From positions 1 to 21,866 of IMG/VR virus record IMGVR_UViG_3300021225_000389: a stretch of 21,866 nt of DNA. One strand, written 5' to 3'. This document shows, piece by piece, positions 719-15,217 of the stretch. The notes below the pieces were generated by a model, which saw only the letters and a list, made by a program, of their open reading frames with translations, was not told where the DNA came from and did no database searches. The position numbers and the translations under genes were made by a program. Every line of letters starts with the position of its first letter. The stretch's first letter is position 1. The stretch comes from a virus.

Positions 719-803
719 GTACCCCCTGTAGGACTTGAACCTACACGTCTTTAAGACAATGGTTTCTAAGACCATCCTGACTACCAGTTCCAGCAAGGGG
801 GTA
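719..803 (-). tRNA. tRNA-Leu (TAG)
   Basis: Class II tRNA of about 85 nt. The acceptor TACCCCC pairs with GGGGGTA. The anticodon stem is ATGGT/ACCAT and the loop is CTTAGAA, giving anticodon TAG. The long variable arm folds as GTCTT/AAGAC. The T-arm is GTAGG-TTCAAGT-CCTAC. The discriminator would be C with this pairing, which is unusual for Leu, so the exact ends may shift by one base. Confidence 0.9.
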
Positions 804-809
804 AATAAG

Positions 810-898
810 CGGAGGGGGTGAGATTCGAACTCACGGAACACCTTTCGGCGTTCGGTGCTTTTCAAGAGCACTGTACTAAACCACTATACGACCCCTCC
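810..898 (-). tRNA. tRNA-Ser (TGA)
   Basis: Class II tRNA of 89 nt. The acceptor GGAGGGG pairs with CCCCTCC, with discriminator G as expected for Ser. The anticodon stem is GTGCT/AGCAC and the loop is CTTGAAA, giving TGA. It has a long variable arm with an internal hairpin and a T-arm of GTGAG-TTCGAAT-CTCAC. Confidence 0.93.
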
Positions 899-1114
899 AA
901 AGTTCCCCACCCTGAGATTCCAAGTGAGTAGTTATATCGGTTTTTCTCTTTCCAAAAACCTGCTGGGCGTCCCCGTTGAAAAAAGTCACACTACGTAGGA
1001 GGAGTTGTGCTGTCTCCTTGAGTCCTACGAGAAGTCCTTAACAGCGGACGTTCCAATACCGACCATAGATTAAATGAGTCTTTGGTTAGACTTCTGAGTA
1101 TCTCTTACTCATTG
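899..1114 (-). ncRNA. Candidate structured RNA between tRNA-Ser and the first tRNA-like element
   Basis: No ORF fits, but strong nested pairing is visible. CGTAGGA (994-1000) pairs with TCCTACG (1023-1029) and encloses GGAG (1001-1004) with CTCC (1014-1017). GGTTTTT (939-945) pairs with AAAAACC (954-960). Further short stems are GTCC/GGAC and AGTCT/AGACT. The stretch is less AT-rich than the neighbouring genes. Family unknown; it is flanked on both sides by tRNA-type elements, which could release it by RNase P and RNase Z processing. Confidence 0.5.
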
Positions 1115-1235
1115 TAGTCAGGACAGGACTTGAACCTGTACGATGTATTTCTCTTACATCTCGGAATTAATGGCCTCATAGAAATATCTCTTTCTATTAG
1201 CTTACTTGTTGCGTCTACCATTCCGCCACCTGACT
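1115..1235 (-). ncRNA. tRNA-like element 1 (Leu-like ends, abnormal core, 121 nt)
   Basis: The ends are tRNA: acceptor AGTCAGG with CCTGACT and discriminator A, a D-arm of GCG-GAATGGTAGA-CGC, and a perfect T-arm ACAGG-TTCAAGT-CCTGT. Between the D-arm and T-arm lie about 72 nt, more than twice the usual span of anticodon plus variable arms. They contain hairpins ATAGAAA/TTTCTAT and GATGTA/TACATC. I find no 5-bp stem with a 7-nt loop carrying U33 and an anticodon. The first 25 nt are identical to element 3. It may be a tRNA-Leu derivative, an intron-disrupted tRNA or a processing signal. Confidence 0.55.
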
Positions 1236-1246
1236 ATATTTTATAA

Positions 1247-1369
1247 TTAAAAAACTATCTGTGTCAATGAATAACCAACAACAATAACACCAAAAATGTA
1301 AACAATCATAGGGTCAAATGGATAACACCCTTTTTCAAGCTCTTGATGAAATTTTTTAAGTATCTTCAT
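1247..1369 (-). CDS. Hypothetical 40-aa single-pass membrane protein
   Basis: A short ORF with ATG at 1369 and TAA at 1247, beginning MKILKKFHQELEKGCYPFDP. The first 20 residues are basic and hydrophilic. They are followed by one hydrophobic segment of about 19 residues (MIVYIFGVIVVGYSLTQIVF), which would cross a membrane. It fills the gap between tRNA-like elements 1 and 2. No promoter or family is evident. Its coherent composition and exact fit in the gap support it, but the ORF is short. Confidence 0.5.
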   Translation of the reverse strand: MKILKKFHQELEKGCYPFDPMIVYIFGVIVVGYSLTQIVF

Positions 1370-1384
1370 AATTTTCAATTTTTG

Positions 1385-1476
1385 TAGTCAGAACAGGATT
1401 CGAACCTACCATCCGTTCTATCACCGTTTCTAGTGGGATTCGAACCCCGATAGATAGGACTGACCAACACCTGACT
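1385..1476 (-). ncRNA. tRNA-like element 2 (two T-arm-like motifs, 92 nt)
   Basis: The acceptor AGTCAGG pairs with TCTGACT (one G-U), discriminator A, followed inward by a T-arm GTAGG-TTCGAAT-CCTGT. A second T-loop sequence, GGGTTCGAATCCC, sits in the middle of the element, and the outer middle can pair as CTATC/GATAG. No D-arm of normal form and no anticodon arm are visible. It looks like a fusion of two tRNA 3' halves, or a remnant of recombination between neighbouring tRNA genes. Confidence 0.5.
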
Positions 1477-1693
1477 ATATAAAAACACCCTACTTTATCC
1501 AACTTACAGGTGTTATGGCTGTCCTCATTGCTGAGTTAGGAATAAACTGTCTTGCTCCCCTTCGTGATGGGTCTTACCGACGTTAGTAGTCAACTAGAAG
1601 GTAATATATATACAAACCTTCAACTCTTCCCTATGGTTATCACACCATTTCTCATCGTATGGGACGTACTATCTGATGATTAGTCAGAACGTG
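1477..1693 (-). ncRNA. Candidate structured RNA between tRNA-like elements 2 and 3
   Basis: About 217 nt without an ORF. Visible pairing: AACACC (1484-1489) with GGTGTT (1509-1514), GAAGGT (1597-1602) with ACCTTC (1616-1621), and ATGG/CCAT around 1640. At 1681-1690 a second copy of the acceptor 3' segment (tagtcagaac) precedes the copy belonging to element 3 by 13 nt, suggesting slippage or recombination there. RNA family unknown. Confidence 0.45.
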
Positions 1694-1791
1694 TAGTCAG
1701 AACAGGATTCGAACCTGTATGATGGTTGCTTTAAGTTTTTTTTCACTGTACTTCCCATCTAAGCTAGCGTCTACCATTCCGCCACCTGACT
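1694..1791 (-). ncRNA. tRNA-like element 3 (Leu-like ends, abnormal core, 98 nt)
   Basis: Shares its first 25 nt with element 1: acceptor AGTCAGG, then D-arm GCG-GAATGGTAGA-CGC. The T-arm ACAGG-TTCGAAT-CCTGT is perfect and the acceptor closes with TCTGACT. The 48-nt middle keeps the string CTTAGA, as in a Leu(TAG) anticodon loop, but the flanks cannot form a 5-bp anticodon stem. A long pairing GATGG/CCATC occupies the variable-arm position. It could be a decaying tRNA-Leu or an RNA that needs only the acceptor and T-arms. Confidence 0.5.
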
Positions 1792-1847
1792 GTATGTGGG
1801 CTACCCTCCTTTCGTCGCAACCGCCCACCCGTTGTGATTTCAGATTG
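1792..1847 (-). ncRNA. Short hairpin spacer between tRNA-like elements 3 and 4
   Basis: GTGGGC pairs with GCCCAC over 6 bp around a loop of about 20 nt. The segment is GC-rich for this genome and has no ORF. It is probably part of the same polycistronic RNA. Confidence 0.35.
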
Positions 1848-1919
1848 TAGTCAGGACAGGATTCGAACCTATAATCTCCCTCGTTTTCCATGGGGTGTTT
1901 CCAATTACACCACCTGACT
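1848..1919 (-). ncRNA. tRNA-like element 4 (72 nt, non-canonical anticodon loop)
   Basis: The most tRNA-like of the five: acceptor AGTCAGG/CCTGACT, discriminator A, D-arm GTGT-AATTGGAA-ACAC, 5-nt variable loop AGATT, and T-arm ATAGG-TTCGAAT-CCTGT. The anticodon stem would be CCCAT/GAGGG, with three G-C pairs, an A-A mismatch and a U-G. The loop GGAAAAC lacks the near-universal U33. If the loop opens to 11 nt it contains AT-GGA-AA, which would read as GGA (Ser), but this is speculative. Confidence 0.55.
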
Positions 1920-2023
1920 ATGTTGTAGGACCCGCACCCTACACTGAACTTGTACTTCGTTCTATTAAGCGTTTACGTAAAAGACCTACACTGGTACGCT
2001 CTTCAGCGTTGTAGGTACTTTAG
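1920..2023 (-). ncRNA. Candidate structured RNA between tRNA-like elements 4 and 5
   Basis: Strong nested pairing in 104 nt. ACCTACA (1984-1990) pairs with TGTAGGT (2010-2016) and encloses the hairpin ACGCT-CTTC-AGCGT (1996-2009, written on the plus strand). TGTAGG (1924-1929) pairs with CCTACA (1938-1943). No ORF. The stems are perfect, which argues against neutral decay. Confidence 0.5.
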
Positions 2024-2138
2024 TAGTCAGGGCCGGACTCGAACCGGATAAGCGACCTTACTTCTAATGATATCTCCAAGTGTCGAGAACCACTAACTCT
2101 CAGGATTTGGGTCCGTCCCTCATTACGCCCACCTGACT
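2024..2138 (-). ncRNA. tRNA-like element 5 (115 nt)
   Basis: The acceptor AGTCAGG/CCTGACT with discriminator A is as in the other four. The T-arm differs but still pairs (CCGG-TTCGAGT-CCGG), a compensated change relative to ACAGG/CCTGT. The middle holds GAGAG-TTAGTGG-TTCTC, which has anticodon-arm size but would read AGT with G37, not a normal bacterial anticodon. A 30-nt arm closed by GAC/GTC and ACTT/AAGT follows in the variable-arm position. It directly abuts the end of the 97-aa gene. Confidence 0.5.
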
Positions 2139-4983: not shown

Positions 4984-5574
4984 TTATCCGAAATATGTAT
5001 TTTCGAAATAAAGAACTTGGAATTTATCTTTCTTATCTACAAGGTTTGAAGCATTTATCAAGTCATTAAACTCAACAACTGATTCTCTTTGGATGTCTCT
5101 GAATTGTTGTAAGAAGTCAAATGTTGTTAAGTCATCTTGAAACACGTCATGTGAATCACTATTATAACTCTTCATTAGTTTCAATTCAAACTCATATGCT
5201 TGGTGTACGATATCAATTAAATTATCAAACTTGTGTGATGAATCCGCTTTAGCAATTTCAGGTAGTATATTAAAATCAGTCATATACTTCTGTATGATTT
5301 CAGCATGTCCCAATTCTGTTTTAGCATCTGCGTCAAAGAAAGCCGCTGCCTTCTTATAGTTTTGGTCATGACACCAGTTAGCTGCTGCTCTGTATAGGTA
5401 GTGAGCGTAATATTCATCTTTAAGACGAGAGTTTAGTATCTTAATTACTTTATCAGATAACTTATAAAGTTTTGGTTCAGACTGCGACTTCAGATTATTA
5501 TCGCTTGTTTTTTGTTCGTTAATATTCATCGCCGCTTGAAATAATTGTTCTTTAGTTATTACTACATTTTTCAT
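4984..5574 (-). CDS. Ferritin-like iron-storage protein with an N-terminal phage tag
   Basis: 196 aa. Residues about 38-175 form a non-haem ferritin four-helix domain with all five ferroxidase-type ligands in register: E54 (DEYYAHYLYR), E87 and H90 (ELGHA), E130 and Q162. Known members oxidise Fe(II) and store Fe(III) in 24-mers. The first 37 residues are extra compared with bacterial FtnA. They begin MKNVVITKEQ and carry INE at 18-20, matching the shared tag seen in other proteins here. Driven by an ATATTTAT box 4 nt before the start. A phage ferritin might protect the host or DNA from iron-driven damage, or be a packaged virion protein; the tag favours the latter. Confidence 0.85.
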   Translation of the reverse strand: MKNVVITKEQLFQAAMNINEQKTSDNNLKSQSEPKLYKLSDKVIKILNSRLKDEYYAHYLYRAAANWCHDQNYKKAAAFFDADAKTELGHAEIIQKYMTDFNILPEIAKADSSHKFDNLIDIVHQAYEFELKLMKSYNSDSHDVFQDDLTTFDFLQQFRDIQRESVVEFNDLINASNLVDKKDKFQVLYFENTYFG

Positions 5575-14296: not shown

Positions 14297-15217
14297 TAAT
14301 ATTAGAAAAGCCTGAGATTATAGCTTATGTTAAGAAACTTTTGAAGGATTATTGTTTCCCTTCGTATCCACTTTCTTTTGGAAAGTATTTCTCAGTGACG
14401 GTCTTTTAGGTTTACCACTCCTTGAGGTTTGAATTACTCTATCAGTACTCAACTCTTTCCGAGGTTGCCACCCCAGTTCATCCTTGCGGGATTAAAGGTT
14501 TTTCTTAACAATACACATTGACTTGGGGTCTCTGTGTGCAATGAACGGCTCATTACTATGTAGTCACCTTTCATTCAAACCTGATGGACACTTTTCCTTT
14601 GTTATTATGTAATAATGTTAGGTTTGTGTTGTAGATGTGCCAGAGTAGTGGTCCAACGTAAGCTCCGTTTCCTTTTGAGAAACGAAATACTAAACTACTC
14701 CGTGAAGTGTCCCCACCTCCATATTTCAAGATTACTTCATAAAGAGACCTTGGTAGGTCTTCCTTAGGGATAGTAGCGACACCACTCGTTCTCTATCTTA
14801 CCTTTCGGTTTTAAGTCCTCTATCATATTGGGACCCGCAATGGTGTGACTGGATGGTCACATTTCTTACAGAGTTCCTATGGGTTATTCTTGTCGTTCTT
14901 CCGAACTCAACCTGACAATCTACTTTGCCAGGTCACCCTACCATTTTCCCTACGAAGTTATCCTCGGTACTTACGGTGTTGTGATATCCCACTTGTGTAC
15001 TTGAGTTCAAATCCCACCAAAAGGTGGTTTTCAAACCGCAGTCTCCTCAACACATGAGAGACCACTTTATCCTACTTTCGTAGTTTATTTAAGGACCATA
15101 CACGGCCCATTATCGTTTATCAGATTAAATGTCTCATAATCAACCCGAAGGTCTCATAATCAACTACTGAACGGATAATCTTTTTGTTTCAAAGAACGTT
15201 TCGGACATTTCCGATTT
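14297..15217 (-). ncRNA. Giant structured non-coding RNA candidate, about 940 nt with terminator
   Basis: No frame is open for long on either strand, and the stretch is visibly less AT-rich than the genes around it. It is full of perfect short stems: ACTTTC/GAAAGT (14370-14386), GAGTAGT/ACTACTC (14643-14700) enclosing GTTTC/GAAAC (14667-14683), TGTGAC/GTCACA (14844-14861) and CCACC/GGTGG (15014-15027). Two copies of a 14-mer (plus strand gtctcataatcaac) lie at 15131-15144 and 15151-15164. It starts below three strong promoters and ends in an intrinsic terminator, so it should be an abundant transcript. Size, lack of coding and phage/tRNA-rich context recall the ornate RNAs GOLLD and ROOL, but I cannot confirm homology. 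Confidence 0.65.

Follow-up and report, generated by a model that had tools for sequence, protein, structure and literature searches.

The window, by which we mean the whole 21,866-nucleotide (nt) stretch of viral DNA analysed here, carries on its minus strand an array of five tRNA-like elements separated by spacers (Table 1). In the direction of transcription the array runs from element 5 to element 1, with tRNA-Ser(UGA) and tRNA-Leu(UAG) downstream. All five elements have an AGTCAGG acceptor strand paired at seven of seven positions with CCTGACT or TCTGACT, and discriminator A (A73), as a first-pass annotation of this DNA had claimed. The T-arms, which it had described as intact, are so in four elements (stems ACAGG/CCTGT, ATAGG/CCTGT or GTAGG/CCTGT, the last with two wobbles); for element 5, whose T-stem TCCGG/CCGGC has four pairs and a mismatched first pair, the description is slightly generous. 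Of the parts of a decoding tRNA, the 7-base pair (bp) acceptor, the T-arm and the discriminator are present in all five elements and the canonical anticodon arm is absent from all five: a 5-bp arm with a 7-nt loop and U33 occurs in 0 of 5, in agreement with the annotation.

Table 1 Features of the tRNA-like array in the window, in the direction of transcription
Feature	Position	Strand	Remarks
tRNA-like element 5	2024..2138	-	115 nt; T-stem TCCGG/CCGGC; core kept in L026, L185, L159
Spacer RNA, structured	1920..2023	-	104 nt; 3′ half conserved (L074, L203, L166)
tRNA-like element 4	1848..1919	-	72 nt; misnamed tRNA-Phe(aaa) by ARAGORN
Spacer	1792..1847	-	56 nt; 100% identical in related phage L139
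tRNA-like element 3	1694..1791	-	98 nt; core homologue in L007
Spacer RNA	1477..1693	-	217 nt; exactly fills the gap between elements 3 and 2
tRNA-like element 2	1385..1476	-	92 nt; core holds a second T-arm-like hairpin, GGGGTTCGAATCCC
Spacer with 41-codon open frame (MKILKKFHQELEKG...)	1236..1384	-	Not a structured RNA, as read from the sequence
tRNA-like element 1	1115..1235	-	121 nt; core homologue in L024/L116
RNA family A, structured	899..1114	-	~215 nt; flush between element 1 and tRNA-Ser(UGA)
tRNA-Ser(UGA), ordinary	810..898	-	3′ border of RNA family A
tRNA-Leu(UAG), ordinary, same array	720..802	-	

The Rfam tRNA model accepts elements 1, 3 and 4 (35–44 bits; gathering score, 29) and gives no report for elements 2 and 5 even at E ≤ 1; the processing of these two poorly scoring elements is less sure. 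ARAGORN, which the annotation had proposed as a check, calls one of the five, element 4, and the name that it assigns, 'tRNA-Phe(aaa)', is an artefact, as the element has neither U33 nor a 5-bp/7-nt arm. Standard tRNA finders miss or misname such elements, which are therefore probably mis-annotated in many phage contigs. The tmRNA covariance model yielded only a 13-nt sub-threshold fragment (9.7 bits; gathering score, 47), and the GOLLD and ROOL models of Rfam gave zero matches in positions 600–2500 of the window even at E ≤ 1.

The spacers are found in other phage loci (designated by L numbers) to varying extents. The 104-nt spacer contains a covarying terminal hairpin (GTAGGGTGCGGGTCCTAC / GTGGGGAGCGGATCCCAC / GTGAGGAGCGGGTCTCAC). 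In L139, both tRNA-like elements that neighbour the 56-nt spacer are different from those in the window. The 217-nt spacer recurs with ~96% identity and equal length in L026, L185, L211, L227 and L256. The spacer between elements 2 and 1 has only a weak local match elsewhere; it looks coding, its 41-codon frame specifying a small, probably membrane-spanning protein, and this counts against reading the spacers as non-coding RNAs to be released.

The spacer between element 1 and tRNA-Ser(UGA) belongs to a family, RNA family A, of which we extracted 64 copies including that of the window (for example, L126:7462-7674 and L093:12117-12337). Its 16-mer core occurs in at least 120 viral stretches, some of them by chance; BLAST finds the family in none of the annotated phages, and it has no match in Rfam. 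The consensus structure of 55 aligned copies contains 127 double-changed cells, compared with 40.3 ± 7.2 in shuffled alignments and at most 27 in controls slid by 1–3 columns. The 5′ end of family A lies 0–1 nt past the upstream feature in 45 of 57 copies (28 tRNAs and 17 elements), and the 3′ end is no more than 3 nt away from the following feature in 48 of 60 (40 tRNAs and 8 elements); the window copy is flush at both sides. Family A is a new structured RNA, with interchangeable borders that are either an ordinary tRNA or an element.

The elements themselves recur widely. A 22-mer from the element 3′ half, GGTTCRARTCCTGTYCTGACTA, matches at least 120 stretches of viral contigs, and nearly all of its 193 copies in the fetched loci have AGTCAGGT 53–190 nt upstream, usually along with GGCGGAATTGGTAGACGC. 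We extracted 227 distinct elements from 137 loci (median length 103 nt; mostly 70–190 nt), counting related loci among these IMG/VR fragments as separate and placing the ends by pattern and pairing rules, by which some elements may be missed or misplaced. There are up to 18 copies per phage, and a reversed-pattern control gave 0 matches where the true pattern gives 1–18 per record. Given this control and the recurrence in at least 120 viral stretches, chance is excluded. In a phage of 208 kb, 18 copies lie on one strand within one stretch of ~13 kb, and none was found in the rest of the genome. The carriers are not one recent clade, because TerL identity spans 24–67% among the six carriers with full terminase matches. 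Their hosts are uncultured bacteria, probably mainly Bacteroidota; carrier contigs have been binned with Chitinophagaceae, Flavobacterium and Saprospiraceae.

When compared by BLAST with 50,697 annotated phages, neither the array nor family A gave a match, and a single element gave mostly short matches to phages, many of them to pieces of ordinary tRNAs. A scan of bacterial genomes returned 10 stretches, all in draft or metagenome-assembled genomes; these are probably phage contigs, so that a parental host tRNA sharing this 3′ half is not evident. A CCA enzyme is encoded in 1 of 14 carrier records and RtcB in 0 of 14; in these records, which may be fragments, tRNA machinery of this kind shared by the carriers is thus not apparent. 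Searches of the open-access literature yielded no description of the elements. They form a large, hitherto undescribed family with hundreds of members in many phages, a scale that the first-pass annotation had missed, and are not local debris.

The cores of the elements are hypervariable yet are themselves selected RNAs, a point that the first-pass annotation had missed. The 227 elements have cores of 186 groups, and as 157 of these are singletons, sampling of the repertoire is far from complete. Homologues of element 5, also 115 nt long and with a core identity of 86–89%, occur in L026, L185 and L159; elements 2 and 4 have no core homologue beyond the near-identical contigs L123/L124. In 26 homologous core groups, there are 26 compensatory cells, compared with 7.5 ± 2.6 after column shuffling (maximum 13 in 60 shuffles), and 9 broken cells, compared with 17.7. 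The annotation had suggested looking for the same elements in related phages and for covariation, and both are present. The single-sequence fold energy of the cores is barely better than that of shuffled sequences (mean z = −0.26).

Because the extra sequence lies where the anticodon arm belongs, the elements could be tRNAs with introns whose splicing yields functional tRNAs, an outcome that the annotation had named as one that would overturn its interpretation. We consider this almost certainly incorrect. A common closing helix resembling an anticodon stem was not found: a helix of at least 5 bp is present in 79 of 226 elements and in 66 after shuffling, which is no clear excess. Moreover, the inserts are much shorter than group I introns, and the same arrays already hold large sets of ordinary tRNAs.

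A first estimate of acceptor-stem conservation was dropped because the search pattern itself contained the stem, and was replaced by a sample of loci fetched without the motif, through a neighbouring protein and through a 16-mer of a spacer RNA. In these loci, AGTCAGG (≤1 mismatch) occurs in 107 of 123 anticodon-less elements and in one of the 295 that have a canonical arm (Fisher P = 6 × 10−81, which is overstated as the test treats related loci as independent). The contrast between anticodon-less elements and ordinary tRNAs inside the same arrays is plain, and it extends to the T-stem, which is ACAGG/CCTGT in 66 of 107 anticodon-less elements, whereas the canonical tRNAs have 115 different T-stems. 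The canonical anticodon arm is absent from 304 of 311 elements with this acceptor stem, and the stem is also seen in rare canonical tRNAs, such as Lys-UUU in L053. The acceptor stem is thus nearly private to the anticodon-less elements, which the first reading had also overlooked. The immediate flanks are similar to those of ordinary tRNAs in the same loci (n = 278), with T-1 in 83% of elements versus 71% of tRNAs and C74 in 98% versus 99%.

The acceptors that accompany homologous cores differ in a compensated manner, being AGTCAGG/CCTGACT in some and GATCAAG/CTTGATC, AGTCAAG/CTTGACT or AATTAGA/TCTGATT in others. The stem can therefore change together with its partner, and selection on the element ends acts at the RNA level. 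Although the acceptor can vary with compensation, most elements keep AGTCAGG, a sequence bias beyond pairing. We know of no need of RNase P or RNase Z for this acceptor sequence. As a conjecture, the near-invariant A1–U72 acceptor stem might block charging. A strict pattern, run without a positive control, detected no tRNA with this acceptor among 199 genomes from one host order.

The same data bear on the annotation's suggestion that the elements are recombination intermediates of a decaying tRNA-Leu family. An origin as tRNA-Leu pseudogenes, in decay or kept alike by recombination, would accord with the consensus 5′ half AGTCAGGTGGCGGAATTGGTAGACGC of the elements, which we take to resemble tRNA-Leu, and with the sharing of the stem by rare canonical tRNAs. 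However, phages whose TerL proteins have 24–67% identity preserve the stems, the T-loop, A73 and C74; more than 100 elements retain the acceptor, the T-arm and the flanks; every acceptor change is compensated, as on homologous cores with GATCAAG/CTTGATC versus AGTCAGG/CCTGACT; and the cores covary. The random loss of stems looked for as a sign of tRNA pseudogenes was not found, the stems being kept or compensated. Random decay is refuted by the held stems, the compensated acceptors and the core covariation, and we regard this reading as a whole as very improbable. A Leu ancestry is plausible, the 5′ half being tRNA-Leu-like, and recombination is a possible source of new cores.

Gaps between neighbouring elements have a median of 157 nt, none being ≤15 nt; 42% of tRNA–tRNA gaps are ≤15 nt. 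In the array of L139 (1300-6000), open reading frames of at least 60 residues cover 31%, compared with >80% in other parts of the genome. Among 116 element/element pairs of homologous spacers anchored at the 5′ end, 113 have upstream elements that are not homologous to each other and 3 have homologous ones, although these pairs are not independent, as loci overlap and family A dominates. One spacer module, family D (TGACACGCACGG...GTGCGTAGGTAA), lies within the cores of elements in L196 (acceptor GGTTGGG/CCCAACT) and L221 (AGTCAGG), and in seven other loci it lies outside any detected element. Core-versus-spacer matches in L205 and L140 were left out of the evidence, because these seemed to be elements with a different acceptor that had escaped detection.

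These observations give strong comparative support to the annotation's proposal of punctuation. Conserved structured spacer RNAs start 0–1 nt past one border and end ≤3 nt from the next, and the bordering unit is exchangeable, being either an element or an ordinary tRNA; borders that are flush on both sides and can be exchanged in this way carry most weight. We think it probable that these non-decoding tRNA-like RNAs punctuate, for RNase P and RNase Z, a polycistronic phage tRNA/non-coding RNA array, many of them also carrying RNA cargo. The specificity of RNase P and RNase Z lies in the acceptor/T-arm, from which we infer cutting by these enzymes; the likeness of the T-1 and C74 flanks to those of ordinary tRNAs points the same way indirectly. 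The acceptor stem, the T-arm and, mostly, the D-arm would recreate what the two enzymes recognise. A transcript of the array, presumably made as a single unit, would be cut at the 5′ and 3′ ends of each element, freeing the elements, which might then receive CCA, and thereby releasing the structured RNAs between them with defined ends. The ordinary tRNAs of the array would act likewise, the two kinds being exchangeable as borders. The anticodon domain, dispensable for cutting, would have been replaced by a hypervariable structured RNA, many elements would probably be carriers of cargo on a stable tRNA-like scaffold, and the A1–U72 acceptor stem may keep them uncharged, which is conjectural.

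Pure punctuation leaves the conservation and covariation of the cores and the near-fixed acceptor sequence unexplained. A carrier role is supported because the cores covary and family D is found inside them, and the freedom of the anticodon domain to vary allows the core to host RNA. It is unlikely, in our estimate, that cargo is the main role of the elements, with phage regulators, sponges or defence decoys displayed on a protective tRNA scaffold that tRNA enzymes mature, and with the bordering of spacers as a by-product. The cores are diverse but structurally selected, a spacer module is inserted in two of them, and their hypervariability is compatible with an arms race, all of which suits a primary cargo role; the flush borders, exchangeable with ordinary tRNAs, and the weak average folding of the cores speak against it. 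So do the sense and antisense matches of 15 cores to their own 208-kb phage, which at 9–15 nt for the longest equal those of order-1 shuffles and are not above chance.

The annotation had also raised a decoy role: elements that present the acceptor, T-arm and elbow, with no anticodon to cut, to defence nucleases or toxins that attack tRNAs. Such a role would fit the anticodon-less state of 304 of 311 elements with this stem and a diversity of the arms-race type. This seems quite improbable to us, because the variation lies in the core and not in the tRNA-like part that a tRNA nuclease sees, flush spacer RNAs are left unexplained, and we know of no defence target for such decoys. The ~25-nt shared ends, and the same spacer with different neighbours, could also mark recombination cassettes, with the common ends acting as DNA sites for the exchange of cores and spacers; however, conservation ends exactly at the tRNA boundaries and takes in tRNA processing flanks, and compensation in the acceptors suggests that it is the RNA that is selected, which makes such cassettes hardly credible.

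Mitochondrial polycistronic transcripts are punctuated by tRNAs, and plant t-elements and mascRNA are tRNA-like structures cut by RNase P and RNase Z. The proposed punctuation of the phage arrays resembles these systems in using a tRNA, or a structure like one, to delimit a neighbouring RNA with no need for decoding; by contrast, it concerns phages, hundreds of elements with one acceptor stem and hypervariable cores, and mainly non-coding RNAs between them. As in t-elements, an acceptor/T-arm module lies flush with a neighbouring RNA, for family A on both sides and with borders exchangeable with tRNAs, and conservation suggests that this neighbour is a mature RNA. The likeness is one of presumed mode of action and does not place the elements in a described family.

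The species 1 and 2 RNAs of T4 (rnaC and rnaD) are a precedent for stable RNAs within a phage tRNA cluster, and the 3′ end of rnaC has a T-arm-like hairpin, CCGGG-TTCGAAT-CCCGG, which is a point of likeness to the elements. They differ in having no shared acceptor stem, a fold without a regular 7-bp acceptor, and one copy of each per T4 cluster. BLAST finds rnaC and rnaD in T4-like phages, and positions 900–2200 of the window gave zero matches against phages, T4 included. The tmRNA shares with the elements a tRNA acceptor and T-arm and a replaced anticodon domain; the elements differ from it in matching no tmRNA model and in being mostly 70–190 nt long with no tag frame identified. A phage tmRNA is present in an array of the same kind in L093 (5724-6218, plus strand). 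GOLLD and ROOL are large structured phage RNAs beside tRNA islands, with tRNAs sometimes inside GOLLD (PMC12286853); the elements and spacers match neither family. The window has a GOLLD RNA (RF02032, 320 bits) at 14309-14702 on the minus strand, apart from the tRNA-like array. A single copy of the Rfam freshwater-1 RNA (RF02979), a separate small RNA and not an element, lies inside the tRNA/tRNA-like array of L139 (385-447, minus strand) and may show the origin of this orphan RNA.

Why phages have large tRNA arrays is an old question. The tRNA-like modules and the real tRNAs that border conserved non-coding RNAs suggest that part of these arrays is not for decoding, a second and testable reason for phage tRNA clusters. 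A position flush between tRNA ends offers a bioinformatic handle for new phage RNAs, and the elements would be natural cases of RNA modules borne on a tRNA scaffold. A bolder idea, which we advance tentatively and hold to be possible, is that they are an unrecognised RNA class: phage tRNA-scaffold cassettes with a private, possibly charging-proof acceptor, in which fast-changing functional RNA modules inside and between elements form exchangeable 'RNA island' units used against or inside the host.

Several minor observations were made. Another anticodon-less tRNA-like RNA, of ~155–175 nt and with a conserved GGGTTGACCAC(A/G)AAGC, occurs at L016 587-742, L046 5302-5469, L064 12256-12431, L109 836-992 and L198 13645; its acceptors are TGTCAGG, TGTAAGG, TGTAGAG, TGACAGG and TATCGGG, each with the exact complement. 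The second T-arm-like hairpin seen in element 2 of the window (1385-1476, minus strand) has counterparts in cores of L025_359, L039, L049, L106 and L111, as if a further tRNA 3′ domain were nested within. Spacers of L003, L025, L037, L078, L093, L140 and L141 have, just 5′ of elements, a short hairpin, TGACAGCTCGGAAAGACGAGCAA, with a compensated stem, possibly a processing or regulatory motif. A spacer RNA with constant ends (GTGTTGTTCCCTTGAGAAAGGAA ... ACAACACAGAGGACTTCTCATCCTC) and a hypervariable middle, in L026, L097, L139, L141 and L142, repeats the pattern of constant ends and variable core. Finally, five otherwise different proteins of the window, starting at 5574, 6812, 7190, 9845 and 10210 on the minus strand, have a similar N-terminal peptide (MKNVVITKEQ, MKYLISEEQ, MKFIITESQ, MKVVITEEQ and ...KIVITQEQ), which is perhaps a targeting or packaging signal.
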